A stretch of DNA of 29,421 bases from a virus. The notes below the pieces were generated by a model. The model saw nothing but the letters and a program-made list of their open reading frames with translations. It was not told the origin of the DNA and did no database searches. The translations under genes were made by a program, and so were the position numbers. Position 1 is the first letter of the stretch. Every line of letters begins with the position of its first letter. The DNA lies in the IMG/VR virus record IMGVR_UViG_3300022602_000310, positions 1 through 29,421 of that record, one strand, 5' to 3'. Below, in pieces: positions 13,684-29,421 of this stretch.

Positions 13684-14130
13684 TTATTCTCTGAAAAAAG
13701 TTGTATGCAATTGTTTGAATCCACGTTTTGAATAATCAATGCTTGGACTGTTGGCCATAAGTGATGTCATCACTACATCGATGCGCTTTTCATCCAATAA
13801 TTTTTGAGCCTGTTTGTTAAATTCTAGCCATAATTTGCCACCAAGCAAACCATTCCTTTTTTCTGGAGCCACCCACCATGCCAGCTCATTGAGTTGATTT
13901 GATTTTGGACACCAAATATTTGGTGTAATCATGGCAATGATCATTCCATTCAAATCCTCGTCAATGACAATAAAACCTCGACCCAAAATCAAACTGTAAA
14001 GCAAATTCCCCACATATTTTTTATCCCACAATGTTTGATCTTTGTATTTTTGAATCAATGTTTCTCTTGAGAATTCCTCAATCATTGCAATCAAAATTGG
14101 AATATCAAATTTGTTTGCCAGTCTGATCAT
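13684..14130 (-). CDS. GNAT-fold acetyltransferase in the tail operon
   Basis: The 148-residue protein shows the GNAT layout: an N-terminal MIRLANKFDIPILIAMIEEF, a beta strand GRGFIVIDEDLNGMIIAMIT, then LAWWVAPEKRNGLLGGKLWL (the pyrophosphate-binding turn region) and DVVMTSLMANSP before a final GFKQLHTTFFRE. Such proteins transfer an acetyl group from acetyl-CoA to amines. GNAT genes inside tail operons recur in siphoviruses of Proteobacteria, and their substrate there is not established. The gene overlaps the upstream tail gene by ATGA, so it is made with the tail proteins. Confidence 0.75.
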   Translation of the reverse strand: MIRLANKFDIPILIAMIEEFSRETLIQKYKDQTLWDKKYVGNLLYSLILGRGFIVIDEDLNGMIIAMITPNIWCPKSNQLNELAWWVAPEKRNGLLGGKLWLEFNKQAQKLLDEKRIDVVMTSLMANSPSIDYSKRGFKQLHTTFFRE

Positions 14131-14930
14131 GTGTTTGAAAATTTCACCAATGGCACTGGATTGGTTTGAGTTGATCCGATAACTTTGGTGGCCGAGCCTG
14201 GTATTGGGTTTTGGCCAAAATTAAAATAAGTCGATGCAATCACTGGCACTCGATCCATGCTGGTATCGTTGGGATATAAGAATCGCCAATTGGATGGATT
14301 GGTTTTAATGCCAGCCAATCTCGAATCCAGCACCAATCGCATCGATGCACAAGACACAATACAAACAACAGTGCGCTGCCTTTTTTGATCATCAAAATTT
14401 TCATTGATGGCCACATTGTTGATGATGCCTTGGTATCTTTGGAAAAACTGTTGTACACCGCCAATGGTTTCAATTTGATTGCTGGCATCGAGAAATCCAC
14501 GCCAAATTTTTACAGTGCTGCCTTTGACTGGTGATGCCAATATCAGTGAAACCACATTGATATCTAGTCCAGACAAAGATAACTTTATATCCACACTACT
14601 GGCTTTCATATCTTGCTGAATTTCACTCACGCCAAGATATGTGCCATAACCAGCATATCTGATCCCATTGATTGTGACTGGGCCAGCTGCATTACAGAAT
14701 GTAAATATCTGCTGCGCTTTACCTGTTCCTGATCCCACGCCAGTAGCCGTGAATGTCACTCCGACTGTATTGGATGATGCACCGATAGCTGTAAAATCAG
14801 TCGTGCCAACAACAAAAATAGTATAAGTGCTGCCAACAATAAATTCTCCAGCATAAACTGTAAGAATCAATTCGACAAATTCAGCATATCGAATTGAACT
14901 GGATCCAAGTGCTGCAATTGCTGTTGACAT
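14127..14930 (-). CDS. Minor tail / tip protein with an inserted small domain
   Basis: The 267-residue protein has a main part recognisable as a distal tail or baseplate protein of gpL/DUF2163-like position (YLGVSEIQQDMKASSVDIKL; SRLAGIKTNPSNWRFLYPND; SMDRVPVIASTYFNFG). Near the N-terminus, about residues 28-75, lies a distinct module containing TIFVVGTTDFTAIGASSNTV, which is widespread as a mobile insert in unrelated phage structural proteins. The protein lacks the cysteine cluster of lambda gpL. It probably builds the tail tip below the tape measure and above the J-like protein. Confidence 0.65.
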   Translation of the reverse strand: MSTAIAALGSSSIRYAEFVELILTVYAGEFIVGSTYTIFVVGTTDFTAIGASSNTVGVTFTATGVGSGTGKAQQIFTFCNAAGPVTINGIRYAGYGTYLGVSEIQQDMKASSVDIKLSLSGLDINVVSLILASPVKGSTVKIWRGFLDASNQIETIGGVQQFFQRYQGIINNVAINENFDDQKRQRTVVCIVSCASMRLVLDSRLAGIKTNPSNWRFLYPNDTSMDRVPVIASTYFNFGQNPIPGSATKVIGSTQTNPVPLVKFSNT

Positions 14931-14932
14931 AA

Positions 14933-15535
14933 TTATCCTGTAATGTATTCACGAAATACAAATGGCCCAGACCATTCGACAAATGCACCATTGGTCATTG
15001 GTGTCAATGAGTATGTGGGACATTGCTCGGCCACCACATAAAACGAACACGCATTGCCCAAAAGAACTGGTGCAGCCGATGTCGGTTCGCCAATCAATGG
15101 TCGATTAATATAAATTACTGATCCAGTCGAATCGTTGGTAATCTTGTAAACATAACCATTGATGGATATGAAATCGCCAGCCTTATAAGTGCCATTTGAG
15201 GTTAAATTGATTGTTTGGCTGTTGGGTGTTGGTGTGCCACTTAAACTGGCCACTGTGGCCGTTCCTTGGTTTTGCGTGAACCATGATAACTGGCTCGATG
15301 CAAATGTAATGTAATCGGGCAGTTGCCGATCCAAATTATCAATGGCTTGGATAATGTCTCTGACCTGTGGGTAATACAAAAAATTATGTGGGACTATTGT
15401 AAAAACCCATGGCACTGATGTTAAGTATTGAGCCACTGTGACTTGCCCTGATCGTGACACTTGTTGGCCAATCATCCTACGATTATTTACTGTCATCTTT
15501 TGTTGAATATCAACAATGTTTTGGAAACCAGCCAT
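14933..15535 (-). CDS. Distal/minor tail protein (200 aa)
   Basis: The likely start is the ATG at 15535 (MAGFQNIVDIQQKMTVNNRR), a TAATG overlap with the tape measure stop; an upstream in-frame start at 15592 would lie inside that gene. The protein has PWVFTIVPHNFLYYPQVRDI and a beta-hairpin-rich middle (AGDFISINGYVYKITNDSTG), ending in FVEWSGPFVFREYITG. Its place right after the tape measure matches the M or distal-tail position of lambda-like operons. No direct family identification is possible from memory. Confidence 0.65.
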   Translation of the reverse strand: MAGFQNIVDIQQKMTVNNRRMIGQQVSRSGQVTVAQYLTSVPWVFTIVPHNFLYYPQVRDIIQAIDNLDRQLPDYITFASSQLSWFTQNQGTATVASLSGTPTPNSQTINLTSNGTYKAGDFISINGYVYKITNDSTGSVIYINRPLIGEPTSAAPVLLGNACSFYVVAEQCPTYSLTPMTNGAFVEWSGPFVFREYITG

Positions 15536-17472
15536 TATGTTCTGCTCCTCGTTGTGGCAATGTTTTTGGTAGCATATTGATTGGCCGCCCAAATCGCACC
15601 AGAACTGCCATATAGCCTATCCTCAAACGATTTGGTGTCAATGGCTTGTATATAGTTGTTTGTGATGTTTTGAGTTGATCCACCAATCCCCATCAATTTA
15701 TTGTTGGGGATAACAGTACCTGATCCTTTAGGGACAATCAATTCTGGGCCTTGTTCTCCCACCAAATATGGTGTTCCACCAGATACATCACCACCAACTG
15801 CTTTAGGCCCACCAAAATAACTGGAAATGCTCATTGTGCCTTCACCTGGTACTGACACATTGCCAGATTGGAAAAAACTACTAAATACACTTCCACCTAA
15901 TCCACTAAATAATTGAGTGGCTTGAGCTTTAATTTGAATAGCAATTAAATCTTGAATAATGCTAGCAGCCAAACTAGAAAAACTAATTTTTCCAGTTTTT
16001 GCAAAATTCTCCAATGCTGTTGACATTGAATCCACAATTGTGTTGAATGATTTTCTGCCAGCATCGGCCATTGTTTGTGCATTATCTCGATATTGAGCAA
16101 ATGCTTCATTCCATCCAGTGCTGAATTCTGTTCTTGCCTTTTGATTGGCTGCGACTACTTTTTCAGTTTTAGCAATGTAATCAGTGGTTGAAAATTCAAC
16201 CAATTCTTTTTGTCTTTTTAATTCATTTTCTAATTCGCTTGCACCTGGCTTATTTTTATCAATTAATGCCATTTTTTGATTAATGGCATCCAATGTTTTT
16301 TGACGCTCATTCAATACTTGATTGATGGCATCTTGCATTTCTTTTTCGTTTTTTGTTATATCTTTATCTAATTCTTTTTGTCCTAATATTTTTAAATTTA
16401 ATTCTTCCCTATTTTGATAGGCAGCAAATAATTCTTTTTCTGCTAATAATTGTTTTGAATAACTTTCAACAACATTTCTTTTTGCATCTTCTTGTTTTTT
16501 GGGTGTTGATACTTTTTCATTTGCATCATTAATTTTTTTCATTGATGCAACATACTCATCAGAATCTTTTGCCCATTCTGTCGTGAACTCATTCAAATTA
16601 TCGGTGAGCTGCTTGAAAAATGTGCCCTGTGTATAACTCCGAATATCAAAAAGAGTGTACAGATCCTTGGCCAACAATTTAATGATGCTGCCAAAATGCT
16701 GAAATGCTGTAACAGCTGCTTCAACAAAATCGCCAATTGCTTGGGCACCAATTTTGAGCCAGCCAAAAAACATTTCCATCATGGTGCCAGTTTTATGAAA
16801 ACTATCATAAACCGCATTCATTGTCGGTATAAATGCATTGGTGAATTGTAATGATAGATTTCTGCTCGATGCATCGAGCTTGAGTGACAATTCATGGGCT
16901 TGATCGATGGCATTGGCATATTTGTCCATGGTGCCTTTGCTTTCGGCCATAGTGGCTGCCAAGCCTTTTAGATCCACTCCCCTAATCGATTTGCCCAATG
17001 TTTCAAATGCAAGGCCATTTCGCTCGGCTGAATCCTTCATATTGCCAAGAGCTGATACAGTCTTTTCAAATAAATCCTGTTCAGACAAATGCTTTAAATC
17101 ATTAAGGGAAACCCCTAATTTCTCAAATGATGTCTGAGCCTTGGCATTGCCCTGGACTGCTGACTCTAGCTTGGATGTGAATCCAGAATAGATTTTGCTG
17201 GTGGCATCGGCTGAACCGCCATTTTCCTCAAGAGCCTTGGCCAGCTCCAAAACCGATGCTGTGGCCACATCATTGGCTTTGGCAGTCTCCACAATCTTGT
17301 TGGAAAACTCCATTGCTGATTTGGTCATTTCAACAAATGCAGCCACTGACAAAATTTCGGGAATATATTCTTTTAAATCTTTGAGTGAGTTTTTGGCCTC
17401 AGAAATGCCTTTTCTGAATTCGGTGGTATCAAGTCCCAGTTGGGCACCTAAACCAGCAATAATATTGGCCAT
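15535..17472 (-). CDS. Tail tape measure protein (lambda family)
   Basis: At 645 residues this is a mid-sized tape measure. The N-terminus (MANIIAGLGAQLGLDTTEFR) and coiled-coil first half are typical, with hydrophobic spans near residues 230-270 (IGDFVEAAVTAFQHFG). The C-terminus has the signature GGDVSGGTPYLVGEQGPELI of lambda-family tape measures. The protein sets tail length and helps DNA entry; by the usual rule of about 0.15 nm per residue the tail would be near 95-100 nm. Its start overlaps the GT stop (TAATG). The middle third is strikingly AT-rich compared with both ends. Confidence 0.92.
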   Translation of the reverse strand: MANIIAGLGAQLGLDTTEFRKGISEAKNSLKDLKEYIPEILSVAAFVEMTKSAMEFSNKIVETAKANDVATASVLELAKALEENGGSADATSKIYSGFTSKLESAVQGNAKAQTSFEKLGVSLNDLKHLSEQDLFEKTVSALGNMKDSAERNGLAFETLGKSIRGVDLKGLAATMAESKGTMDKYANAIDQAHELSLKLDASSRNLSLQFTNAFIPTMNAVYDSFHKTGTMMEMFFGWLKIGAQAIGDFVEAAVTAFQHFGSIIKLLAKDLYTLFDIRSYTQGTFFKQLTDNLNEFTTEWAKDSDEYVASMKKINDANEKVSTPKKQEDAKRNVVESYSKQLLAEKELFAAYQNREELNLKILGQKELDKDITKNEKEMQDAINQVLNERQKTLDAINQKMALIDKNKPGASELENELKRQKELVEFSTTDYIAKTEKVVAANQKARTEFSTGWNEAFAQYRDNAQTMADAGRKSFNTIVDSMSTALENFAKTGKISFSSLAASIIQDLIAIQIKAQATQLFSGLGGSVFSSFFQSGNVSVPGEGTMSISSYFGGPKAVGGDVSGGTPYLVGEQGPELIVPKGSGTVIPNNKLMGIGGSTQNITNNYIQAIDTKSFEDRLYGSSGAIWAANQYATKNIATTRSRT

Positions 17473-18307
17473 TATTTCACCTCAAATAAATGTGTCGGGC
17501 AATCTGGTGCCATCATTGCAAATGCCAAGAGTTTTTGATTGGCTGTTTCCTTTTTATCCTCCTCGCTCAATGGTGGATAAATATAGTCATAAGCCCTTGA
17601 AATTATATCCTCGAGTGTATAGGGTGACTTGCCTTTGGGCAACATTTTATTGAATTGCCCAGCTGTGAGATTTCCCAAAACCTCCAAAACGCCACGATTA
17701 CCAATTAAGCCATCGGCATACATAATGGCAATGTCGTTGAATGTGCCCTCGTCAATTGCTGCTGGATCGGCCCCATGGGCTGTGATGTAGGCTTTGACTT
17801 GCCTACGAACCGATCCAATTATTTTCCCTTGGTGGCCGTGTAATTAGGTGAAATTACGCTATTGATCTGCTCGATCAATTCCATTTGAATTGAAAAGGGG
17901 AATAATTCCTCGATGTCGGCATAGGTGATCGAGGCCATATCAAAATCTTTATTCTCTGGCACCAATAATCGCACCAGCTCAGTAATCCTGTTTTCAGTCA
18001 AAACCTTATTTCTCGATGTCTCTTTGATCGATGTGCCCTTGACCTCGATGTCATTATCCAAGTATTTGATATCTGGATCATTTTCATATTTGGCTCGATT
18101 GTCCAAAAACTCCTTGGACATATCCTCATAATACTTTTGAGCCTTGGCCTCGTCAATGATCTTGACTCGCTCAAACATGGCATCAGTTTCGCTTGTCAAT
18201 GGCACTTTGACCTTGAATGTGTGGCCATTCAATTCAAATGATTTGATCCTGAGTGAATCTTTGTTTTCTGTAAATTTTTGGCCAAAAGCATTTGCAAGTT
18301 GATTCAT
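17472..18307 (-). CDS. Tail assembly chaperone GT fusion made by -1 frameshift
   Basis: Reading starts at 18307 as the G protein, slips back one base at GGGAAAA (17828-17822) and continues from 17822 to a stop at 17472. This gives 162 + 116 = 278 residues. The extension begins IIGSVRRQVKAYITAHGADP and includes MYADGLIGNRGVLEVLGNLT; it has no start codon suited to independent expression. In lambda the GT fusion binds the tape measure while the G part coats it during tail polymerisation. Lying directly before the tape measure gene is the classic arrangement. Here the frame continuity is exact, with no stop between slip site and 17472. Confidence 0.88.
17763..17828 (-). promoter_or_regulatory. 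Programmed -1 frameshift signal (slippery site plus nested stem)
   Basis: The minus-strand heptamer GGGAAAA at 17828-17822 is in the correct X XXY YYZ phase for the G frame (AAG GGA AAA then TAA). Four bases later an 8-pair stem TGGATCGG (17817-17810) with CCGATCCA (17770-17763) encloses a second 6-pair hairpin, GTAGGC with GCCTAC (17806-17801 with 17792-17787, loop of 8). Both parts match the usual layout of phage tail-chaperone frameshift sites. Confidence 0.88.
17819..18307 (-). CDS. Tail assembly chaperone G
   Basis: The 162-residue protein begins MNQLANAFGQKFTENKDSLR with a KSFELNGHTFKVKVPLTSET strand region that is typical of G-like chaperones, followed by acidic helical segments and LFPFSIQMELIEQINSVI near the end. 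It terminates at TAA directly after the slippery heptamer. It would be made in excess over the GT fusion and help load tail tube subunits on the tape measure. It overlaps the upstream HK97-gp10-like gene by ATGA. Confidence 0.85.
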   Translation of the reverse strand: MNQLANAFGQKFTENKDSLRIKSFELNGHTFKVKVPLTSETDAMFERVKIIDEAKAQKYYEDMSKEFLDNRAKYENDPDIKYLDNDIEVKGTSIKETSRNKVLTENRITELVRLLVPENKDFDMASITYADIEELFPFSIQMELIEQINSVISPNYTATKGK

Positions 18308-18870
18308 TTTCCTGTTCCCATGTGTTTTGATTTGTATTTTATTAATGCGTCTTTTAAATCGCCAGCCAATGAATTGGTCACTTGAACTGCATTGCTTTCA
18401 AGTGCTGGCCGAATGAATGGACTGCCCTCGCCCTTGAGCCATCTGGCTGTGCCAAACTCGATGGCAAATGCCCTGGCATCACTGACCATATGCTGCAATT
18501 TGTTGGTCTTTTTGTTTTTGAATGTCTTGGACAAAAGTCTTTTTTCGCCTTCGACATCGGGTTGGAATTTCTTGCCTGGTGCGACTGTCACTCTGGATAT
18601 CATCACCATTGTGGGTGTAGAGTACAGTGAATGCTTGTCTTTGCTGGTAGGTTTTCTGGCCTCAATTTGCAGCGACTTAATGAGCTGGCCAGTATCAATG
18701 TGTGGCTCCAAAAGCACTCGAGCTGTTTCCAACACTGGATTCATGGCTGCTCGACAAGCATTTTTTAAAATATTATTGGCATCCTTTTCACCAAAATCAT
18801 CATCGATCTGATCAAGCAAATCCTCAAATTCCTTGAATCCAGACCATTCGATTTTGATATCAGTGGCCAT
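18304..18870 (-). CDS. HK97-gp10-like tail completion/connector protein
   Basis: The 188-residue protein starts MATDIKIEWSGFKEFEDLLD and has the family hallmark in its C-terminal part, RAFAIEFGTARWLKGEGSPF followed by IRPALESN, where the fixed phrases are EFGT and PFIRPALE. HK97-gp10 proteins act at the junction of head and tail. Usually they are coded before the tail tube gene; here the gene lies after it, next to the chaperones. It begins exactly after the stop of the 76-residue ORF. Confidence 0.85.
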   Translation of the reverse strand: MATDIKIEWSGFKEFEDLLDQIDDDFGEKDANNILKNACRAAMNPVLETARVLLEPHIDTGQLIKSLQIEARKPTSKDKHSLYSTPTMVMISRVTVAPGKKFQPDVEGEKRLLSKTFKNKKTNKLQHMVSDARAFAIEFGTARWLKGEGSPFIRPALESNAVQVTNSLAGDLKDALIKYKSKHMGTGK

Positions 18871-19101
18871 TTAATTGAGCTTTCCAATGATGATTTTTTT
18901 GAAAATCATGCTATTGAGCTGGATGACGTAATCGACCACTTCCTCTGGGGTCATCGAGTCGGCATGATGTTTGGCAATATCAAACGCCAAATTAATACCA
19001 GTAATTTTTTGTTGAGAAAAACCAAACCAGTCTTTTTTACCTGACTCGGCTTGGTTTATCAAATATCCCAAAAGATCATTATTGTTTTGTATTATTGTCA
19101 T
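18871..19101 (-). CDS. Small protein between tail tube and gp10-like genes (76 aa)
   Basis: The product, MTIIQNNNDLLGYLINQAES onwards, is helical with KKDWFGFSQQKITGINLAFD and a C-terminal SMTPEEVVDYVIQLNSMIFK. I do not recognise a family. The gene ends one base before the next start and begins 6 bases after the tail tube stop, so it is part of the tail operon and probably an assembly factor. No membrane span or signal peptide is visible. Confidence 0.7.
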   Translation of the reverse strand: MTIIQNNNDLLGYLINQAESGKKDWFGFSQQKITGINLAFDIAKHHADSMTPEEVVDYVIQLNSMIFKKIIIGKLN

Positions 19102-19107
19102 TTTGTT

Positions 19108-19629
19108 TTATGTGTTGTTTGACCAGCCGTACAAATTACCTCTGGGGTGAATGCTGAATGTGCATTTTGCCTCGGCCTTGGTGTTCATATCAATTTTAAA
19201 CTCTGATACTCGACCGATGAATGCATAAGCCACTGTATTCGCACCAGCTGTGGCAGCCACCACAAAAGTCCGATCAATCACGCCAGAATAGGCATCAGCT
19301 CTCATCAAAAGCAAACCAGCATCTGATGGATTCCATGCAGCCACAATAGTCATCGATGTGGGCTTGGCTTGAGTTGGAATAATGTCGGATTGTCTTGATC
19401 CAGCCACTGCAAAATTGACTGATGCATCATCTTGGCCAAATGCTGGAATGTCCTCCACAAGCAATTGCTCGCCAGTAGTGCCAGTGCCGTTGGCAATAGT
19501 GCCAACAATAGGAGCCACTTCCCCAGTCCAAGTGGACAATTGGGTCAATGTTAATGGGGTTGGAGTTGCTCCAGTTTGACACCAGAGTGACGCACTAAAG
19601 CCAGGTAAAACTTGATTTGGTAATGCCAT
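19108..19629 (-). CDS. Major tail (tube) protein
   Basis: The 173-residue protein begins MALPNQVLPGFSASLWCQTG and continues with beta-strand-rich, alanine/threonine-rich sequence: TPTPLTLTQLSTWTGEVAPI, TQAKPTSMTIVAAWNPSDAG, VVAATAGANTVAYAFIGRVS. It ends FSIHPRGNLYGW. This resembles the tube proteins of lambda-like siphoviruses (phage tail tube / TTP fold). The position after the tail terminator-like gene and before the chaperones supports it. It has no extra C-terminal Ig-like domain. A 43-base gap with no obvious signal precedes it. Confidence 0.8.
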   Translation of the reverse strand: MALPNQVLPGFSASLWCQTGATPTPLTLTQLSTWTGEVAPIVGTIANGTGTTGEQLLVEDIPAFGQDDASVNFAVAGSRQSDIIPTQAKPTSMTIVAAWNPSDAGLLLMRADAYSGVIDRTFVVAATAGANTVAYAFIGRVSEFKIDMNTKAEAKCTFSIHPRGNLYGWSNNT

Positions 19630-19672
19630 GATTAAATCCTTTGAGAAAAATTAAACGAATTGTTTTGTTTTA

Positions 19673-20098
19673 TCAGCATGGGATGTCCATCCGACAATCC
19701 AAGATTATCTGGTGCAATTTTACTTGATCATCATAGGTATTGTATAGCATCGAAATATCAATTTTTGATACCAAAATGCCAGCAAATGACCCATTCACAC
19801 CAAAAAATCCAGCAAATCCATGCAGAGCCTGAATGATCGTATTTGATGCGCCAAAACAATCACTCATATTGGATGCAAAAACCGATGTTTGAAACACTGG
19901 TGTGTCAATGCCTTTGTTGGATTGTGTCGGCCCTGTATAGACTGGCTGATGCACATTCCTCAATTGCCAAGTGACAAATGTTGGCTCATTAGCAAAATTC
20001 CTGTTGAAATTTGCATACACTGGCACTGGGTTAACAGTGGCAGCCAATTGATTTTGAATGCACTGGGCATAGACAACAATACTTTGCTGGGTTGTCAT
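19673..20098 (-). CDS. Tail terminator-like protein (141 aa)
   Basis: The ATG at 20098 gives an ATGA overlap with the upstream gene (MTTQQSIVVYAQCIQNQLAA); a longer in-frame start at 20128 is less likely. The C-terminal half has ILVSKIDISMLYNTYDDQVK followed by LHQIILDCRMDIPC, a pattern of strand-helix-strand that fits the U/gp-like terminators. The call relies mainly on place: between head-tail adaptor and tail tube. It would cap the tail tube and join it to the head. Confidence 0.6.
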   Translation of the reverse strand: MTTQQSIVVYAQCIQNQLAATVNPVPVYANFNRNFANEPTFVTWQLRNVHQPVYTGPTQSNKGIDTPVFQTSVFASNMSDCFGASNTIIQALHGFAGFFGVNGSFAGILVSKIDISMLYNTYDDQVKLHQIILDCRMDIPC

Positions 20099-20439
20099 AC
20101 TGCCACCGATGGTGCATTTCTGTAACACAAGAATGAAACATTCATTCTGTCGTTCGATTCCATCACATCATTGATCCGATAATCTTGGCCACGCCAGCTG
20201 ATGGAATAGTAACTTTGATTCATGGACATGGTTTGTGTGTTGGGTGTGAAATTCAAAGTGAATTTAACATTCTTTGTATAAGTCCGATCATCTCTGCTAA
20301 TTTGTGCAGCATCCCTCACATCCTGAACCAATGCTCGAGTCGCAAACCACAATGTGATTGTGGTGGTCTGCTGCCCAATACTGTCCACGCCATTGGTAAC
20401 AGTGTTGACATTGATCTGTTCAAAACGTGCAATGGCCAT
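20095..20439 (-). CDS. Head-tail adaptor (HK97 gp7/H_T_join-like)
   Basis: At 114 residues the size is right for the Phage_H_T_join family. The N-terminus MAIARFEQINVNTVTNGVDS and the middle VKFTLNFTPNTQTMSMNQSY lead to a C-terminus with SWRGQDYRINDVMESNDRMN and VSFLCYRN, which recalls the usual beta strand-turn of the adaptor fold. The position between gp6-like connector and tail terminator supports the call. Stop of the upstream gene and start of this one are adjacent. Confidence 0.75.
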   Translation of the reverse strand: MAIARFEQINVNTVTNGVDSIGQQTTTITLWFATRALVQDVRDAAQISRDDRTYTKNVKFTLNFTPNTQTMSMNQSYYSISWRGQDYRINDVMESNDRMNVSFLCYRNAPSVAV

Positions 20440-21108
20440 TTATAGCACCAATGGTTTGTAGGGTCTGAGCAATGCAGCTGCGCCCATGGGAATCTGTTTC
20501 AGATTCATTGATGTGGTATCTGATCTGTTGTTGTACAAATGCGTGAGAATCATCAGCCCAGCTTGTTGGATCACTGGATATGATGCATATGGGCTGGAAT
20601 TTGACGTATAGATAACAACAATCGGGTTTGATATTGCCTGGTTGATTTCGCTTGGAATGCTATTGCAAATCACCTTATTACCAGTTGGATCGTAAAAATA
20701 AGTCGTTGGACTGACAATTGTATAAACTGGTGGAGTGCTGCTGTCCCAATAGCCCACCTCATTGATGATAACGCCTGGGCCATATTGGGTGGATTGACTG
20801 ACTTCAGGCAAATCCAAACTGGCCTGAGTACCGCTTTCGCCATTGTAGGCACCATAATAAACACGATACTTTGTCGGGAATATGCTCATTCCCAAAAAGT
20901 CCTCAACCATCATTCTGGTGGCCAGCTCTAGCCCAGACAAATAATCATCCTGACTTTCATCATTGTATAAATTGAGCTGATTGGTGATCTGGCTTAATGT
21001 TAACCATGGGGTTGAAACATCACGATCAATCTGCTCAATTTTCTCATAAGAAAATGGATTTCTATTTGTGCCCAAAAATGGGCCATTGGTGTAACTGTCC
21101 AGAGCCAT
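20440..21108 (-). CDS. Head-tail connector (gp6-like)
   Basis: The 222-residue protein has the helical N-terminal layout of phage gp6-like connectors: DVSTPWLTLSQITNQLNLYN, then a charged DESQDDYLSGLELATRMMVE and FLGMSIFPTKYRVYYG. The C-terminal helix is VIQQAGLMILTHLYNNRSDT. It has a beta-rich insert in the middle (IINEVGYWDSSTPPVYTIVS). It would form a ring under the portal after packaging. It follows the second capsid gene by 9 bases. Confidence 0.8.
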   Translation of the reverse strand: MALDSYTNGPFLGTNRNPFSYEKIEQIDRDVSTPWLTLSQITNQLNLYNDESQDDYLSGLELATRMMVEDFLGMSIFPTKYRVYYGAYNGESGTQASLDLPEVSQSTQYGPGVIINEVGYWDSSTPPVYTIVSPTTYFYDPTGNKVICNSIPSEINQAISNPIVVIYTSNSSPYASYPVIQQAGLMILTHLYNNRSDTTSMNLKQIPMGAAALLRPYKPLVL

Positions 21109-21117
21109 TTTGAGCCT

Positions 21118-22146
21118 TTAAGTTGAAAGTCTCACGCCACCAAATACGTCACGAATTGTGCTGCAAACTCGCTTTTCAGCAAATAAAGTCAAAAATCCTG
21201 GCTGTGTTTGTTCAAACCATTGGAATGACATTTCTTCATGGTCGGCAATCGTGACAAATCGCTCCCATGCTGCCAAATAAATTGGGAAATTGCCAGCACC
21301 AATTTGCTGCATATAGGGATTGGGAATCACTCGATGGCCAAAAATATTGCCGACTGAATAGCCGTCTTTATCGCCAATTTCAAGAAATAGTGGCAAACCA
21401 CCAGAGTCCTTCAATTCACGCAAATAAGCAATGGTATTGGGATGCATCATCCATGCTGTGGATGGCATATTGTAGTATTGGGGAGGCAATGCAGCATTGA
21501 GTGCAGCAATGTCGTTATAAACAATTGTACCGCCAGTGGTGGATGACACTGTCAAAACTGTGTGAATACCATTGGTGATGGCCGATCCATTCGATCCAAA
21601 TGCAGCTGTTGATCCACTGGTATAACTATTCAAACCACGCAATCCCAATGTCCCACCATAAACAGTCGTTGTCGTGCCAGACTGGTCATTGTTCAACATC
21701 ATGGATAATGCTTCTTGCTGTGAAAACTCTAAACCGACATCGGTCAAAATGGTTTCATTCAAAGCATTGATATCGCTCAAAACTGCTGTACGAACTGGCA
21801 CTTGAGCTGCAATTGATCTGATGGGCAATTGCCAAAATGATGTGTCAGTGTTGGGTGTTCCCACGTTGGGTGTGAATGTATATCCCCAAGGATTGGTCGG
21901 ATTGGTCACATTACCAGTCTTGACCACAAATGCCTCATCTGAGCCAATGGTCATAATTTCTCTTGATCCAGCTGCTCTGAATGGGTTTGCTAAACGCAAT
22001 GCTGCAAACGCATCATCATAAATAACTCGACCACCGACACCAGAGCCTGAGCCAGTGAGTGCTGATGCCTCTTTCAAATTGATCGTCACTCGCTTTTGCT
22101 TTGTGAGTGATTTTTGAATGGCCTCAAGAATGATGTTTGTGCTCAT
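21118..22146 (-). CDS. HK97-fold capsid protein paralogue without delta domain
   Basis: The 342-residue protein (start ATG at 22146 with GGA about 8 bases upstream; a TTG at 22158 is possible) aligns by eye with the neighbouring major capsid along almost all its length. Shared words include LKE(A/S)SALTG, LRL(A/I)NP, NNDQ, YGGT.GLRGLN and FF/LFAEKR. Its N-terminal part before LKEASALTG is only about 24 residues, so it lacks the delta-like coiled coil. It could be a minor capsid such as a vertex protein, a second major subunit, or a recent duplication. The intrinsic terminator at 22173-22201 sits directly upstream. Confidence 0.85.
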   Translation of the reverse strand: MSTNIILEAIQKSLTKQKRVTINLKEASALTGSGSGVGGRVIYDDAFAALRLANPFRAAGSREIMTIGSDEAFVVKTGNVTNPTNPWGYTFTPNVGTPNTDTSFWQLPIRSIAAQVPVRTAVLSDINALNETILTDVGLEFSQQEALSMMLNNDQSGTTTTVYGGTLGLRGLNSYTSGSTAAFGSNGSAITNGIHTVLTVSSTTGGTIVYNDIAALNAALPPQYYNMPSTAWMMHPNTIAYLRELKDSGGLPLFLEIGDKDGYSVGNIFGHRVIPNPYMQQIGAGNFPIYLAAWERFVTIADHEEMSFQWFEQTQPGFLTLFAEKRVCSTIRDVFGGVRLST

Positions 22147-22172
22147 AAATAAATCCAAAAAATTTTAATGAT

Positions 22173-22201
22173 AAAAAGGTAGGGGAGCAATGCTCCCCCA
22201 C
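22173..22201 (-). terminator. Intrinsic terminator between the two capsid genes
   Basis: On the minus strand the RNA would read a 10-pair stem, GUGGGGGAGC with GCUCCCCUAC (one G-U pair), loop AUU, then C and five U's (22177-22173). It lies 4 bases after the stop of the first capsid gene. It should lower, not abolish, transcription into the second capsid gene and the rest of the late operon. Confidence 0.85.
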
Positions 22202-22205
22202 ACTT

Positions 22206-23567
22206 TTAGTTTGCTGCCGTAGCAGTTGAGCGATAAGCAATGATCGAGAATGGATCGACATTGGATGCAGCCAAACGCTTCTCACCGAAGAATGTGATAT
22301 AGCCTGGCAATGTCTGATCGTATCTGCGTAAAACCATGTTCAAACGATCAACAATGGTGTGGCCACGTTGCCAATCACCAAAGTACATTGGGAACTTGTT
22401 CAATGTACCAGCTGATGCTGTGGTGGTTTGTGAGGGATTATCAAGATACTTGTTAACCACCACATCAAAGCCAAGCATTGTGCCCACGATACCTGTGCCA
22501 GGGCCATCGTTCAAGGGATGCATACGCTCGAAAATTGGTGTGCCATTAGAGTCTTTCAATCCGCGGATTTGAGACAACATGAATGGGTTTACCAAGAACT
22601 TAGCAGTAGGAGTCCAGTATTGTTGTGGCAATGAGTAGATGAAATTGACCACATCGGTATACGTTACATTGGCTGCGCCAACAGTATTGCCGTTAGTTGT
22701 CAATTGATCATAAACAGCCAAACTGTTCAAACCATTGCTAGTTGAAATACCAGACGAACCGAATGCAGCAGTAGTAATTGCACCACCACTGTATGAACCA
22801 GCTGCGCCATTATTTGCATATTGATTCAAACCACGCAAACCTTGAGTGCCACCATATGTATTGGGTGAATCAGTTTGATCGTTGTTTTGGATCATGGATT
22901 GACCCTCGACCTGGCTGAATTCCATTAGCATATCGTCAACAACATTGGCCTCTAAGCCATCGATGTCATCGAGTGCAGCAGTACGGATTGGGAATTGCAC
23001 GTTCAAGTCTTGCAAAACCAATTGCCAAATATTGGTGTTTTCGGTTGTTGCTGAACCATTGTTCTGAATGGAATAGCCCCAAGTTGCACCAGCATTACCG
23101 ACTTTAGCCCTGAACTGATAGGTTGAACCTTCAGTGGTCACGTTGCGAGACAAACCACGCATGGGGTTAATCAAACGCAATGTGTGGAATACTGGATCGT
23201 AGGCTGTGCGACCACCGACATTGTAACCGCCACCAGTCAATGCAGAACTTTCCTTCAAGTATGCTTGATACTGATCATCAGATTCAAACAATTTGATTTC
23301 TTTTTCCATTTTGCCTTTTTTGACAAATTTGGATAATTGCTCACGAACCATCTTGTTCACATCGCCTTTGATGGATTTGGATGGTTTGATAATGGATGGA
23401 GCTGTATTGATCTCAGACAATTTGGCCTCGATGGCTGCCAATTTCTCTGTGGTTGCAACAGAAATTTCTTCCACTTTTGCTAGGGTTTCGGCTTTGACTT
23501 CTTCAATCTTGGCCACGTTTGATGCCTCAATGGCATCGACTTTTTCAAGAATTTTTTCGACTGACAT
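22206..23567 (-). CDS. Major capsid protein, HK97 fold, with N-terminal coiled-coil domain
   Basis: The 453-residue protein starts MSVEKILEKVDAIEASNVAK and has a charged heptad-rich first ~60 residues, typical of a scaffold-like delta domain. A helical link follows (SIKGDVNKMVREQLSKFVKK), then the HK97 core, where LKESSALTGG begins the mature N-arm. Later core words are LRLINPMRG, AALDDIDGLEANVVDDMLME, NDQTDSPNTYGGTQGLRGLN and the C-terminal GEKRLAASNVDPFS. The prohead protease coded just upstream probably cuts before the SSALTGG region. The gene has AAGGAAA before its ATG and is followed by a strong terminator. Confidence 0.93.
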   Translation of the reverse strand: MSVEKILEKVDAIEASNVAKIEEVKAETLAKVEEISVATTEKLAAIEAKLSEINTAPSIIKPSKSIKGDVNKMVREQLSKFVKKGKMEKEIKLFESDDQYQAYLKESSALTGGGYNVGGRTAYDPVFHTLRLINPMRGLSRNVTTEGSTYQFRAKVGNAGATWGYSIQNNGSATTENTNIWQLVLQDLNVQFPIRTAALDDIDGLEANVVDDMLMEFSQVEGQSMIQNNDQTDSPNTYGGTQGLRGLNQYANNGAAGSYSGGAITTAAFGSSGISTSNGLNSLAVYDQLTTNGNTVGAANVTYTDVVNFIYSLPQQYWTPTAKFLVNPFMLSQIRGLKDSNGTPIFERMHPLNDGPGTGIVGTMLGFDVVVNKYLDNPSQTTTASAGTLNKFPMYFGDWQRGHTIVDRLNMVLRRYDQTLPGYITFFGEKRLAASNVDPFSIIAYRSTATAAN

Positions 23568-23577
23568 AATAATTTCC

Positions 23578-24375
23578 TTATTTAAGACGCTTTGAAAGTG
23601 CTTTCAACAATTCTCTTTCCTCTAGGGCTTTCAGAATTGAATCGGCCTCGTTGACCACCGCATCCGATTCGCTCGGCTTTGGGGTTTCCTGAATAGTTTC
23701 CTTGGCAGCATCACGCTGCTCAATTATCTTCTTCAGCATTGAAGATGCAGTGGTCGCATCTTTTCTTGAAAGCCCAGCATCACGCAGTGCCTTCTCGATC
23801 ACTCTTGGATTTGCCTGGCCTTGGCCATCGAAATATTCAAGATTCATTACTTCAGCTTTGGGATTGTTTGGGTACATGACAACAGATACCTCACGCAAAC
23901 CGCCTTTGGTGATCTGGAAATAAGATTCGTCATCCATATCATCATCGCATGGATTACCATCGGCATCGACCATTTGCGCCTCATCGGCATAGGCACCGAC
24001 TGAAACACCACCAAACATATTGGGTGATTCTTTTAAGACATTGTATAAATCAGAGCCACCGACTGTGCTTAAATATAATTTGCCCTCGGCAGTCATGCCA
24101 TCATCATCGAATTGGAATTCATTCCATTCCCCGACTGGCATTCCCATATCATTGTGATTCAAAAACATTGGCAGTGGTTTGCCAGATTTTGCAAATTCAT
24201 TGGCCCAGTCCATGAATCCTTCAGGCTGGTAATTGAATCGTCTGCCATCCTCACCATCCCTTGGCCCCCAAGTGGTCACTCTGGCTGCAATTTTTCCACT
24301 AGGTGAGTTTTTTGGGTCTGCCTCTTTTTTTAGACTGACCTTTGCCTCGCAAATTAAATTCAATGTTTGCTTCAT
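23578..24375 (-). CDS. HK97-type prohead protease
   Basis: The 265-residue protein matches the S78 herpes-like serine protease family. His74 lies in MFLNHND, Ser125 in FGGVSVGA, and a conserved acidic turn in LREVSVVMYPNNPKA (Glu162). It would remove the delta domain of the major capsid during maturation. The long charged C-terminal part (KKIIEQRDAAKETIQETPKP) may help it enter the procapsid. The ATG at 24375 lies 77 bases inside the small AT-hook-like gene. Both frames look coding, and its first 25 residues have no obvious alternative start. Confidence 0.88.
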   Translation of the reverse strand: MKQTLNLICEAKVSLKKEADPKNSPSGKIAARVTTWGPRDGEDGRRFNYQPEGFMDWANEFAKSGKPLPMFLNHNDMGMPVGEWNEFQFDDDGMTAEGKLYLSTVGGSDLYNVLKESPNMFGGVSVGAYADEAQMVDADGNPCDDDMDDESYFQITKGGLREVSVVMYPNNPKAEVMNLEYFDGQGQANPRVIEKALRDAGLSRKDATTASSMLKKIIEQRDAAKETIQETPKPSESDAVVNEADSILKALEERELLKALSKRLK

Positions 24376-24508
24376 TGATTACCCCGTTATGTATAGACTG
24401 ATTAATATCTTGTATTGTAGGGGTTTTATCGGGAATTTGTGCTAGTTTAACATCACTCGATTTCACTTGTGAAGATAAAACCCGAATTATTTTTTTTATA
24501 TTGCTCAT
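24299..24508 (-). CDS. Small AT-hook-like basic protein (69 aa)
   Basis: The product begins MSNIKKIIRVLSSQVKSSDV and ends with GKGQSKKRGRPKKLT, where RGRPKK is the core of an AT-hook, a short peptide that binds the minor groove of AT-rich DNA. It starts in TAATG overlap with the portal stop and its last 77 bases are shared with the protease gene. This tight placement supports a real gene. A role in binding packaged or replicating DNA is a guess from the motif. Confidence 0.65.
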   Translation of the reverse strand: MSNIKKIIRVLSSQVKSSDVKLAQIPDKTPTIQDINQSIHNGVINEANIEFNLRGKGQSKKRGRPKKLT

Positions 24509-25953
24509 TATTTGGCAGTATTAATGGCCATTTTTGGTGCCGTTGATCCACCACCGCCACCTGTATCCTGTGGGCTGGATCCAGCAATTGGATCGATTTT
24601 TGCCACTGGTTTACCGCTGATCGGCACGTTGGTTTTGGATATATTGGCTGGATCAAGAGCTGGCAGCTGATCACCACCAGGCACTTTGGGCATATTCAAA
24701 TATTCCCGAGCCTCATTGGGTGTGAATATCCCAGCTGAAACGCCAGCAGTGACAAAATTCATTTGATCGAGTGCAGCACCTTTTAAAAAGTCCTTGGTAT
24801 CGAATCTCATGCAAAGATTTGGGTATCCCCTGAATAATTGCTTGTTGAATTTTTGCTCGATGTTGATGATCATTGGATACATTGTCGTTTTGTAAAACTC
24901 ATCCAATAGTGTCTGGGTGTTGTTGTACTTGCCGACCTCGAGGCCCAGCAGCTGCGCTGGCACACCAAACAATGCACAAATGCGCTTTGTGGTCTGGTCT
25001 TTTAATTTGGCTGCATCGGCATCTTGCAAAGTCAACATCTTGACTGTCTCAAATGTCATCCCCTGATCTAATAGCATTCCTTGGCCAGGCTTACTGGTAT
25101 CGGTCGGCTTGGATCCAGTCATCGATGCCCATGCTTCTTTTAGCCTGGCTGCAATCTCCTTGTATTTGGCATCTGGAATCACCTGATCTGTCTTAAATAA
25201 GCCACTGGGTTTTGCACCATTTTGCATGATGTAGTTGGCATACAAGTCAATATCAGTGTCGAGTGCCACCAGCTCTGTGGCCAAAATACCCTTATTAAAA
25301 CCAGCCGAGCCTTGCCACGCTGCCTCAGTAATATGGATCACCTGGTAAGGCAACAATGGCTCATCCATGTTAAAACCATAGGTCGGTGTGGACATCCGAT
25401 AACTTGGATATCGCAAATTGGTCATCTGCACTGTGATCAATGTGGCATCGAGGTTATACATCTCGATTGGGGTCTGCATCGAATCTTTATTGTCTTTTCT
25501 CAATAGCAAAGTAAAGCACTCACCAGCCAAATCTTGCCACATACACCATTGATACCAAAACTCATATGCATTTTGAAAATTATTGGGATCTTGCAATAAA
25601 TTCAATACTTGCTTGGCCTTGGTCTTGTCTCTAGTGCCTGGCAGATTAGATTCCAGCGCATTGACAAATGTGCCATCATCCAATTTGTACATAATGCTGA
25701 TACCGCACTGGGCCAATGCTCTGGCCTTGACCCCCACGCATGACATGATCGTGCTGTTGCGTGATAGCACCGACATATCGACAATTCGGCCAGCATTGGT
25801 GACGCTGGATGTCGTGACGTACAGTAACTGAAAGGCAGAGCCTTGCTGGCCATTCTGATTTGTCCTGACAATCTGGTTTCCCAGCTGAGTTTGGCCAAAT
25901 AAAGTATTGGATTCTTTGGTCGTTTTACTCTTGAAAATGTCGAATAATCCCAT
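24508..25953 (-). CDS. Portal protein (HK97 family)
   Basis: The 481-residue protein has the standard portal N-terminus (MGLFDIFKSK) and VTNAGRIVDMSVLSRNSTIM, then VKARALAQCGISIMYK and AYEFWYQWCMWQDLAGECFT. In the C-terminal half it shows FGVPAQLLGLEVGKYNNTQT and EYLNMPKVPGGDQLP, matching Phage_portal of the HK97 type. It forms the dodecameric gate through which DNA is packaged. AGGGG before the ATG is a good ribosome-binding site. There is a 31-base gap to the terminase with no clear promoter. Confidence 0.93.
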   Translation of the reverse strand: MGLFDIFKSKTTKESNTLFGQTQLGNQIVRTNQNGQQGSAFQLLYVTTSSVTNAGRIVDMSVLSRNSTIMSCVGVKARALAQCGISIMYKLDDGTFVNALESNLPGTRDKTKAKQVLNLLQDPNNFQNAYEFWYQWCMWQDLAGECFTLLLRKDNKDSMQTPIEMYNLDATLITVQMTNLRYPSYRMSTPTYGFNMDEPLLPYQVIHITEAAWQGSAGFNKGILATELVALDTDIDLYANYIMQNGAKPSGLFKTDQVIPDAKYKEIAARLKEAWASMTGSKPTDTSKPGQGMLLDQGMTFETVKMLTLQDADAAKLKDQTTKRICALFGVPAQLLGLEVGKYNNTQTLLDEFYKTTMYPMIINIEQKFNKQLFRGYPNLCMRFDTKDFLKGAALDQMNFVTAGVSAGIFTPNEAREYLNMPKVPGGDQLPALDPANISKTNVPISGKPVAKIDPIAGSSPQDTGGGGGSTAPKMAINTAK

Positions 25954-25984
25954 GTTTTTCCCCTATTTTGGCCTCATAGTATCA

Positions 25985-27646
25985 CTAAAATGATCTAAAT
26001 CCAAACGAACTCGATGCATATGGATTATCCAAACTGCAATGGGCTGCAATGATCATTGCAATAATGCCATCGACCTTGGCTGCTTTATCGGCTTCATTCT
26101 TCCTGACTTTGATGTTTCCATTGACATCCTCATAAACCTCGCAGTTGGATAATTGCCATCCCAAGAATGGATTCCCATCATGTTTGATTTGTTTATTTAA
26201 TATCAATTTTTCAACATATTTGCTCGGATTTGATAAAACTCCCATGCCTTGGCCGACTTTTTTCACTGGAATGCCAGCCTCATGCAATCTGGCCACCAGA
26301 CTCGATGCATTGTATGCATCGTATCCGACTTCCTTCACATCATATATCTGGCACTGTTGTTTGATGTAATCGCTCACTTCTCGATCATCCATCACATTGC
26401 CTTCAGTGATCTTGAGAATGCCAGAACCGACCGCCACTCTGAAAATGTCGGCATAGTGCTTGGGTATTAATTCCAGCCCAGCCTCGGGCAAAAAGAATTT
26501 GAACTCAGCTCGGTAGTCCAGCTCGCCATATCGTTTTAAAGTGCAAACCGCATTCAAGTCTCGGGTGGCTGCCAAATCAAATCCGATAAATACTGCCTCG
26601 GGCACTCGATCCTCAGTGGGTTGGGTAGCCTCATCCCAGAATGTCCGATCCAGCCAGGCACTCTGTGCCGACACAAATATATTCAAAGTCTTGCACAAAA
26701 ATTCATTGAGTGCAGCTGGTTTGTGTTTGGCCTCCTCGGCCCTCTGAGCAATGGCTTCCTCAAAAACCGATATCCCATGCATGGGATTGGCCTTGGCCCA
26801 GACTGTCGGATCACGCCAATCATCGTTTTGATCTAATGAATACAGCAGTCCAAACCATCTTGGATTGTCGGTGGCCTCGCCATATAGCATGGATTGGTAC
26901 ATCGAGAAATCTTCATAAAATTTGGTGTCTTTGGTAAAACTGGCAGTGGTGATATAAATCCTCAACGGATTTTGTCTGGCCACCATACCTGAGTGCAGCA
27001 CCTCGATCGAGTTTCTGTCCACAATCTGGGCGGCCTCATCAATGATCACGCATGATGGGTTTTTTCCATCCCCTGTTTTCTTTGTGTCTCGGCTCAATGC
27101 CTTAAACATTGTTTGTGTATCGCCAGCCTTTTTCATTTCGTATTTAGAAACAAAATATGTATTGGCCAATGCCGATGGCATATTTTCAACAAATCCCTTG
27201 GCCGAATCAAACACAATGGTGGCCTGTTCCCTGTTGGTGGCCAGGGTGAACACCTCGGCTCCAGCCTCGCCAAATTGCAGCTCATATAAAGCAATGATGG
27301 CCGTTAGTGTTGACTTGCCAGCTTTCCTTGGAATGTAAACGATCACATCGGTGACCATTCTTTTATTTCTATTTTTTTTTGCTCTAAAACCATAAACTGC
27401 ACAAATCAAAAATATTTGAAATGGTTCAAGCAAAATTGGCCGCCCAGCATCTGGCCCTTTGGTGTGCGTTAAAACGCTGGCAAATTTTAAAACGTGCTGT
27501 GGATAATCTGGATCGAAAATCCATTCCCAAGTCTTATTCTCATATTGATCGACAAATCGCTGGCACGCCAGTTGCACATCCCGACAAACATTAATCTCGC
27601 CTTTTGTTACTGCGATTGCATACAGTATTCCATCTTGATAATTCAT
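25985..27646 (-). CDS. Terminase large subunit
   Basis: The 553-residue protein has the Terminase_1 order. Walker A lies in IPRKAGKST (residues 105-113), Walker B with catalytic glutamate in SCVIIDEAAQ (203-204), and a coupling region in LRIYITTASFTKDT. The nuclease domain starts near FIGFDLAATRDLNA (Asp357) with VGYDAYNASS as the second acidic site. It powers DNA packaging and cuts the concatemer. Gene order small-large-portal is normal. It starts in an ATGA overlap with the small subunit. Confidence 0.95.
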   Translation of the reverse strand: MNYQDGILYAIAVTKGEINVCRDVQLACQRFVDQYENKTWEWIFDPDYPQHVLKFASVLTHTKGPDAGRPILLEPFQIFLICAVYGFRAKKNRNKRMVTDVIVYIPRKAGKSTLTAIIALYELQFGEAGAEVFTLATNREQATIVFDSAKGFVENMPSALANTYFVSKYEMKKAGDTQTMFKALSRDTKKTGDGKNPSCVIIDEAAQIVDRNSIEVLHSGMVARQNPLRIYITTASFTKDTKFYEDFSMYQSMLYGEATDNPRWFGLLYSLDQNDDWRDPTVWAKANPMHGISVFEEAIAQRAEEAKHKPAALNEFLCKTLNIFVSAQSAWLDRTFWDEATQPTEDRVPEAVFIGFDLAATRDLNAVCTLKRYGELDYRAEFKFFLPEAGLELIPKHYADIFRVAVGSGILKITEGNVMDDREVSDYIKQQCQIYDVKEVGYDAYNASSLVARLHEAGIPVKKVGQGMGVLSNPSKYVEKLILNKQIKHDGNPFLGWQLSNCEVYEDVNGNIKVRKNEADKAAKVDGIIAMIIAAHCSLDNPYASSSFGFRSF

Positions 27647-28119
27647 GCAGCTTTCGGGCCTCGAAACAAATCATTAATCACGCTATCTTCTTCTGATTTG
27701 TTATTGCTCAATCTGCTTTTTGGTGTCAGCCCCATTTCATTCATCAATTTAAGGCAATTTTCCATGGCCTTGTTTGCCACTGCAATATATGGATTGGGTG
27801 CAAATGTTTTGCCAGCATTTATTTTAATCACCAGTGGGTGTTTAAATTGCTCAGTTCTGGCATCAATGTATGTCTGCATTTGATCGGCCAGCATAAGCAA
27901 TGTGTGCCGATCTTGACCAGAACCAATCCCATATACATCAAATAAATAATCTGCGGTTTCTTTGACAAATCGCTCTCGATTAAATAGCTCTGGCTGGTTT
28001 GCCCATTCAGCAAATGGAATTCTTAGCTTAATTTTTTCAGGCAGCATGATTCCAGCATTCATGCCTTTGGTGCCATGAATCTGATGAATCTCTGGTGGTA
28101 GTTTGTTATTCCCGCCCAT
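27643..28119 (-). CDS. Terminase small subunit (P27 family)
   Basis: The 158-residue protein begins MGGNNKLPPEIHQIHGTKGM, has IPFAEWANQPELFNRERFVK and a helical C-terminal part ending in NEMGLTPKSRLSNNKSEEDS. The N-terminal PPEIHxxxGT pattern and the C-terminal GLTPxSR motif are typical of P27/Terminase_4 small subunits, which recognise the packaging start and regulate the large subunit. It begins 14 bases inside the end of the methyltransferase gene. Confidence 0.9.
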   Translation of the reverse strand: MGGNNKLPPEIHQIHGTKGMNAGIMLPEKIKLRIPFAEWANQPELFNRERFVKETADYLFDVYGIGSGQDRHTLLMLADQMQTYIDARTEQFKHPLVIKINAGKTFAPNPYIAVANKAMENCLKLMNEMGLTPKSRLSNNKSEEDSVINDLFRGPKAA

Positions 28120-29377
28120 TTATTAACTCTGCTTTCTTACCTGTAAAGTCTTCCCATCGCTTAACTATAACATCGCAATATTTTGGGTCAAGCTCCATCA
28201 ATCTTGCCTTACGCCCAATTTTTTCACAAGCAATTAATGTGCTGCCTGATCCACCAAACAAATCCAGAACAATTTCGCCATGCCTACTACTCCATTCAAT
28301 CATTCTTTGAACCAAATTAATTGGTTTCATTGTTGGATGCAAGTCTGATTTGCTTGGTCTGTTTTCTCTTAAAACTGTAGTTTTTTGTTCTGTTCTATAA
28401 CTGTTGACAAGAGCCTCAAGCTCTTTTTTATTCATTTTTTTTATGTCTATATCGTCATCAATTACAGTTGTCCGTGTAAAGTCACCACAAAAATAATGAG
28501 CTGCTCCTTCTTTCCATCCATATAAAATTGGTTCGTGTTGCCAATTAAAATCTTGCCGACTAAGGGTGCCAGCTTGTTTTGCCCATATCAAGACTTGACT
28601 TAATTTTAATCCTGATTCTTTAAAGCATTGAGTAAAATTAACTCTTTCCGTATCTGCATGAGCCACATAAATAACTGCTCCATTTTTCATGCTTAAATAA
28701 TAGCAAGAATAAATAGATGTTAAAAAATCTTTAAATGATGAATCGCTCATGTCATCATTCATTATTTTTCCAGCTGCCCCATCAATAGCTACGTTATATG
28801 GTGGATCAGTCCACACCATATCGCATTTCATTCCTTGCATCAATTCTTCAATTGAACCAATGTTTGTAGAATCTCCACACATTAATCTGTGATCGCCCAA
28901 TTGATATATATCACCAAGAATTGATTTGGGAATTTCTGGAGTTTCAGGGACATCATTTTCATCAACTAGTCCCTTAACTTCTTTTGGCTCAAGAGAAAAA
29001 ATTTCATCTTCAGAAAATCCAGTTATTTTTAAATCGAAACCTTCAAGTTTTAATGCTTCCAATTCAGCCAATAATGTTTGACTATCCCATCCAGCATTTA
29101 ATGCCAATTTATTGTCAGCAATAACTAATGCTCTTTTTTGCGTTTCAGTTAAATGAGACAGCTCAATCACTGGAACTTTTTCCATGCCAAGTTTTCTGGC
29201 AGCAGCCAATCTTCCATGGCCAGCAATAATGACATTATCGCCATCCACCAAAATTGGGTTAGTCCATCCAAACTCTTTTATGCTGGCAGCAATTTGAGCC
29301 ACCTGGTCATCACTATGAGTCCGAGAATTCCTTGCGTAGGGAATTAATTTTTCAATTTCAACTTGTATTATTTTCAT
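28106..29377 (-). CDS. ParB-like domain fused to an N6-adenine DNA methyltransferase
   Basis: Residues 1-90 form a ParB/Srx-type domain with the nucleotide-binding box AGHGRLAAARKLG (52-64). The rest is a DNA methyltransferase with catalytic DPPY (residues 191-194, in TDPPYNV) before the SAM-binding LDLFGGSGSTLIACEK, the order of beta-class enzymes. Family members methylate adenine in double-stranded DNA. In phages they may protect against restriction or alter packaging and gene expression. The gene is more AT-rich than the terminase genes. Its start has AGG about 7 bases upstream. The specificity is not visible. Confidence 0.92.
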   Translation of the reverse strand: MKIIQVEIEKLIPYARNSRTHSDDQVAQIAASIKEFGWTNPILVDGDNVIIAGHGRLAAARKLGMEKVPVIELSHLTETQKRALVIADNKLALNAGWDSQTLLAELEALKLEGFDLKITGFSEDEIFSLEPKEVKGLVDENDVPETPEIPKSILGDIYQLGDHRLMCGDSTNIGSIEELMQGMKCDMVWTDPPYNVAIDGAAGKIMNDDMSDSSFKDFLTSIYSCYYLSMKNGAVIYVAHADTERVNFTQCFKESGLKLSQVLIWAKQAGTLSRQDFNWQHEPILYGWKEGAAHYFCGDFTRTTVIDDDIDIKKMNKKELEALVNSYRTEQKTTVLRENRPSKSDLHPTMKPINLVQRMIEWSSRHGEIVLDLFGGSGSTLIACEKIGRKARLMELDPKYCDVIVKRWEDFTGKKAELINGRE

Positions 29378-29421
29378 GTTTTACCTGTTGTTTTTTGACC
29401 ACCCCCCTTGCTCGCTGGTTT
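29374..29421 (-). CDS. C-terminal end of an upstream gene (cut by window edge)
   Basis: A frame entering from the right edge ends KPASKGGGQKTTGKT at a TGA that overlaps the methyltransferase ATG as ATGA, the usual junction in this operon. The lysine-rich end suggests a nucleic-acid-binding protein. Another frame (ending at TAA 29381-29383) is also open to the edge, so the choice is uncertain. Confidence 0.35.
   Translation of the reverse strand, partial: KPASKGGGQKTTGKT

Follow-up and report, generated by a model that had tools for sequence, protein, structure and literature searches.

Shells built from two paralogous proteins of the HK97 fold are already known, both in bacteriophage T4 (gp23 and gp24) and in the two-component encapsulins. 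In T4, gp24 is probably the product of a gene duplication, some of the mutations by which gp23 can take the place of gp24 map to the A domain, and proteolysis trims 65 residues from gp23 and 10 from gp24 (PMC9958956). The family 2B encapsulins of Streptomyces lydicus likewise combine two HK97-fold paralogues in one shell (PMC12407261); unlike a phage head, this shell, whose tiling is mixed and irregular, is a bacterial nanocompartment, and neither genome packaging, scaffold nor portal is involved. HK97 itself, in which one capsid gene makes both hexons and pentons, carries its scaffold fused to the capsid protein as a delta domain made up of a coiled coil (residues 2-66), a helix (76-88) and a strand (92-97) ahead of the cleavage site at K103/S104; order in the coiled-coil towers is confined to the hexons that surround the portal, and the helix-turn-strand lies under all capsomers (PMC10275583).

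We analyzed a 29,421-nucleotide stretch of viral DNA (IMGVR_UViG_3300022602_000310, hereafter the window) in which two capsid genes lie side by side within a head module on the minus strand. We refer to their products as the major capsid protein (MCP) and the capsid paralogue (PAR). The module reads in the order listed here, with the predicted elements of the two capsid genes given at their places:

27643-28119, minus strand: TerS
25985-27646, minus strand: terminase large subunit, TerL (Pfam 7.1e-42; phrog_9 1e-138)
24508-25953, minus strand: portal protein (Pfam 3.2e-57)
23578-24375, minus strand: S78 prohead protease, Peptidase_S78 (Pfam 7.7e-9, and PHROG)
22206-23567, minus strand: MCP, HK97 family, 453 aa including a scaffold (delta) domain fused at the N-terminus
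23406-23561, minus strand: MCP residues 3-54, predicted 52-residue helix, the delta domain's coiled-coil tower, which PAR lacks
23316-23372, minus strand: MCP residues 66-84, predicted second scaffold helix and inferred counterpart of HK97 S76-S88 (low pLDDT)
22179-22201, minus strand: intrinsic-terminator hairpin between MCP and PAR, 10-bp stem with 7 G-C pairs, tail CTTTTTATCA downstream
21118-22146, minus strand: PAR, HK97 fold, 342 aa, lacking the coiled-coil tower
22075-22146, minus strand: PAR residues 1-24, helix 5-12 and strand 20-23 in the PAR model, an apparent remnant of the scaffold helix-turn-strand
20440-21108, minus strand: head-tail adaptor Ad1, directly after PAR (phrog_40 7.7e-9), a conserved neighbour
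20095-20439, minus strand: head-completion-like protein, after Ad1

The order of the head genes, the fused scaffold, the S78-type protease, and the fold and family of the capsid proteins (Z 18-23 in structural comparisons) liken this module to HK97 and RcGTA, the difference from HK97 being the second capsid gene. The likeness to T4 lies in the presence of two HK97-fold paralogues, of which the minor one probably originated as a duplicate, in the changes to the A-domain, and in the removed N-terminus of gp24, which is much shorter than that of gp23 (PMC9958956, PMC3012670). In contrast to the window, where the scaffold is fused to MCP and the genome is of the ~37-kb class, T4 is a myovirus, large and prolate, whose scaffold is separate. 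Moreover, gp24 occupies the vertices, a place proposed here for PAR, and the resemblance is one of role, not of descent. Adjoining the terminase genes of the window, 28106-29377 encodes a protein in which an N6/N4 DNA methyltransferase is fused to a ParB N-terminal domain.

MCP and PAR align over 343 positions with 38% identity and 54% positives (BLASTP, E 9e-68), against ~20% identity for gp23 and gp24. This bears out the paralogy proposed in a first-pass annotation of the same DNA, which had also listed core sequence words common to the two genes, all of which are real; both open reading frames are present, on the minus strand, where it had placed them. The only coordinate that changes is the start of PAR: a TTG at 22158, which would give a protein of 346 aa, merely lengthens the mechanical open reading frame and was rejected, since the start kept in relatives is the ATG at 22146-22144. 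Both proteins far exceed the curated cut-offs for membership in the HK97-fold major capsid family, with Pfam Phage_capsid (PF05065, cut-off 24.2 bits) matching PAR at 2.7e-20 (73.4 bits) and MCP at 4.8e-26 (92.2 bits), and NCBIfam major_cap_HK97 (TIGR01554, cut-off 27.5 bits) matching them at 1.3e-22 (80.5 bits) and 1.2e-30 (107 bits), respectively; PHROG assigns both as major head protein. Like gp24, PAR is a paralogue, by duplication, of the major capsid protein encoded beside it.

Structure prediction from an alignment of 49 orthologues yielded a PAR model with a pLDDT of 76.8 and a pTM of 0.77, in which the spine helix, E-loop, P-domain and A-domain of the HK97 fold are all predicted. The model matches the RcGTA capsid (6tb9) with a Z-score of 23.0 and an rmsd of 3.9 Å over 257 aligned residues, and HK97 prohead I with a Z-score of 18.1, which passes the check, set in the first pass, that the second gene be predicted to adopt this fold. 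The MCP model is weak (pLDDT 60.9), and the assignment of its fold therefore leans on sequence as well; its nearest structures are those found for PAR, with the RcGTA capsid at Z 18.7.

The two proteins part company at their N-termini. MCP is predicted to form helices at residues 3-54 and 66-84, ahead of the N-arm and arranged as in the HK97 delta domain, such that the fused-scaffold layout of coiled coil plus helix is present. The coiled coil is absent from all PARs in the family alignments, where only a helix-strand remnant is left. In the joint alignment PAR is without a counterpart of MCP residues 2 to ~81, and the structural alignment of the PAR model with HK97 prohead I begins at PAR residue 4, which corresponds to HK97 residue 76. 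Because the profile-profile alignment of the two families spans only PAR 22-342, homology of the N-terminal helix is outside its reach and is drawn from the structural alignment, the MAFFT alignment, and the MCP motif E-I-K-M-F-E, which that alignment shows to be kept in basal PARs (the PAR of L221 reads ...SEIKMFES...NEAS, against ...KELKMFED...KEAS in MCP; L191 and P19250A are similar). The simplest reading of this weak local similarity is that PAR lost the coiled-coil tower and kept the capsomer-proximal part of the scaffold. The earlier description of PAR as a protein without the delta domain thus holds for the coiled coil (MCP residues 1 to ~65) and not for the helix-strand resembling HK97 76-97, which is kept. 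Its corollary, a shell of one processed and one unprocessed subunit, is unsupported as stated, given that PAR retains both this HK97-like helix-strand and the N-arm motif KEASALTG in common with MCP; on the strength of these two elements, a short peptide may still be cleaved from the N-terminus of PAR, as happens to T4 gp24.

To place the pair among its relatives, viral contigs were scanned with profiles of the two families, which matched at least 591 relatives for PAR and at least 536 for MCP; the best of these were analyzed, with four metagenome-assembled genome contigs and the isolate P19250A added. MCP is followed by PAR in 218 of the 231 loci examined, where the 231 include some overlapping stretches of one contig and the 218 include two stretches of the window itself and two loci with an interrupted MCP frame. 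Each of the other 13 has a contig-end cut or an insertion, and we rejected them as relatives lacking one gene, since the contig ends or an insert stands between the two genes, an endonuclease in L106 and an extra domain in L170. PAR is therefore present in every testable relative among these loci. Both genes are complete in 105 distinct protein pairs, and the order TerL, portal, protease, MCP, PAR, Ad1 is identical across all 231 loci wherever the contig is long enough. The cultured Methylophilaceae phage P19250A has the same pair in the same order, with gp5 as MCP (63.6% identical to that of the window) and gp6 as PAR (52.2%). Its record annotates gp5 as 'gene transfer agent capsid protein' and gp6 as 'hypothetical protein', without naming the latter a capsid paralogue, an entry that can be corrected now.

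Such pairs had been called uncommon in HK97-type siphoviruses. This agrees with the few outgroup phages examined, in that each of four phages whose capsids are distantly related carries a single annotated MCP and no second annotated capsid gene, and it does not describe the present large group, in which the pair is universal. In the open-access literature we found no published siphovirus pair with a fused-scaffold MCP, which given that scope is weak evidence of absence, and one Clostridium phage and one Bacteroides phage turned up with two-gene annotations. Venkman (MT375522, our L237), published as syntenic with P19250A (PMC8163748), was rejected as a relative informing on the pair, as its head module at 30815-35297 is of another type, in which a single MCP is annotated and the scaffold has a gene of its own.

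Several loci carry insertions or interruptions at the pair. A free-standing HNH endonuclease lies exactly between MCP and PAR, in place of the hairpin, at L068 2078-2400, and the same insertion occurs in L070, L093-L096 and L106 (Pfam HNH 3.6e-5, phrog_2255 8.8e-11). Another homing endonuclease, with a GIY-YIG-like look (phrog_314 1.7e-15), sits between the MCP hairpin and PAR at L134 5920-6520. One subgroup (L152, L163, L165, L166 and L170) has a ~100-aa domain of unknown function in frame before PAR with no intervening stop (L152 5701-6010; phrog_2859, 5.6e-24), either as an N-terminal fusion or through two overlapping starts. The MCP frame is split in two at L015 257-1669 and L049 3106-4459, probably through assembly or sequencing errors.

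Both genes are under strong purifying selection. Across 277 comparisons with dS between 0.05 and 1 in both genes, which are not independent of one another, the median dN/dS was 0.075 for MCP and 0.103 for PAR, with maxima of 0.33 and 0.29, respectively; 26 disjoint pairs gave the same picture, and no subset suggested relaxation. Disrupted PAR genes were absent from the loci examined, and the protein distances of MCP and PAR correlate (r 0.75). A maximum-likelihood tree of 102 proteins places PAR and MCP on one side each (SH-aLRT 94 and 89), with the outgroups apart, and a single old duplication that preceded the group's radiation is therefore sufficient to explain the pair. PAR is a real, old and selected second capsid protein, and the comparison of selection that had been suggested as a way to recognize a decaying duplicate gives no sign of one.

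The differences between the two families are unevenly distributed over the fold. Consensus identity between them is 17/20 in the N-arm, 26/43 in the post-spine loop and 22/42 in the strand and spine helix, and falls to 32/100 in the core of the A-domain. Among columns conserved at 80% or more in each family, 10 of 23 in the A-domain differ between MCP and PAR, as opposed to 13 of 82 elsewhere (Fisher p 0.009, with region limits that we set from predicted secondary structure). Fixed family differences thus concentrate in the A-domain, at the center of the capsomer; MCP alone has insertions at residues 254-261, 290-295 and 381-388. Since the A-domain is generally less conserved, some of this divergence could reflect rate and not function, an effect that restricting the comparison to doubly conserved columns lowers and does not remove. 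Kept lattice contacts together with an altered capsomer center would be the pattern expected of a dedicated penton.

The arrangement of the two genes bears on how much of each protein is made. The terminator read between them in the first pass is real: the hairpin at 22179-22201 is followed by CTTTTT and is richer in G-C pairs than any other of the 23 terminator-like sites found in 14000-29421. Among 99 distinct relatives, 95 have a G+C-rich hairpin of five or more G-C pairs directly after the MCP stop, and in 85 at least 4 T stand within the 9 bases that follow it. The stem sequence varies while the pairing is kept, and shuffled sequences seldom match. With a gap between MCP and PAR of ~55 bases there is little room for a promoter, and PAR and the tail genes are presumably reached by read-through. 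The Shine-Dalgarno energies have medians of -5.6 kcal/mol for MCP and -3.3 kcal/mol for PAR, with MCP the stronger in 78 of 105 pairs, and the bias toward C-ending codons is stronger in MCP (TTC 58% versus 32%, ATC 50% versus 27% in PAR). Judged from these features of the DNA, PAR is probably a minor product, made in smaller amounts than MCP. Because the terminator affects all the downstream tail genes too, it argues for less PAR than MCP and not for the stoichiometry of a vertex protein.

On the reading that we favor, PAR is probably a minor subunit of the shell that co-assembles with MCP. The head would be built from two HK97-fold subunits, the products of one old gene duplication: MCP, made in bulk with its fused scaffold, would form the hexon lattice, and PAR, made in smaller quantity through terminator read-through and a weaker ribosome-binding site, would join the MCP shell via the common N-arm, spine-helix and loop contacts. 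With its specialized capsomer center, PAR would most likely form the pentons at the eleven non-portal vertices, like T4 gp24, and would keep the helix-strand that lies under each capsomer and not the coiled-coil tower. Of the three readings offered in the first pass, a gp24-like vertex subunit has the best support; by this analogy we place PAR at the vertex tentatively, regarding it as close to an even call. Counting against PAR pentons is the fact that ~37-kb genomes fit a T=7 head, where well-studied phages build pentons from the MCP itself. The copy number of PAR, its incorporation into the virion, its vertex position and its proteolytic state are all features that we infer.

PAR could instead have no set place in the lattice, enter hexons and pentons alike in variable composition, and tune the stability or surface of the shell. 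The HK97-fold paralogues of Streptomyces lydicus co-assemble in just this manner, with variable composition and irregular tiling (PMC12407261), and the lattice contacts kept in the N-arm and post-spine loop would permit it. We nevertheless consider such mixing unlikely, as fixed differences at the capsomer center favor a dedicated capsomer and the conservation of an arrangement for low expression points to a defined stoichiometry. It is also conceivable, and distinctly unlikely in our estimation, that a few copies of PAR sit at the portal vertex or neck, or act transiently in assembly through nucleation, portal placement or control of the protease. The place of the gene, flanked in all loci by MCP and the head-tail adaptor, its expected low expression, and the subclade with the extra in-frame domain before PAR would fit this role, whereas a full HK97 fold (N-arm, E-loop, spine helix and P-domain) under purifying selection suggests lattice contacts, and the coiled coil that PAR is without is the part that binds the portal in HK97.

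An alternative capsid of different size built from PAR, the third reading of the first pass, has nothing in its favor other than that a second capsid gene exists, and is very improbable: the longest relative contigs among the matches listed cluster at 36-39 kb (P19250A, 38.7 kb), most of the fused scaffold is missing from PAR, and no separate scaffold gene was seen adjoining it. A decaying duplicate, for which we found no supporting point, is refuted by a dN/dS of ~0.1, intact genes in the loci examined, presence in all testable relatives and a single ancient duplication, leaving it a negligible chance.

The co-assembling minor subunit that we favor would matter in two ways. A conserved two-gene capsid found in hundreds of aquatic phage contigs, with ~37-kb genomes and a cultured representative in P19250A, would give an independent and simpler test case for how pentons are told from hexons, and would test whether a fused scaffold requires its coiled coil nowhere but around the portal. 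A further step, that a small HK97/GTA-type siphovirus group independently evolved a vertex protein by dropping the tower from its own capsid gene, is one we lean somewhat against; if true, it would be a second origin of the gp23/gp24 division of labor, in a head of a size believed to do without one, with the tower retained only on those subunits that need it for portal placement.

Elsewhere in the window, three tail-region proteins (7877-9925, 6932-7867 and 10762-13680) contain long collagen-like GYSG/GFSG/GISG repeats, with a Pfam Collagen match within the last of these, and glycosyltransferase and SAM-methyltransferase genes lie downstream of the tail genes at 3731-5342.
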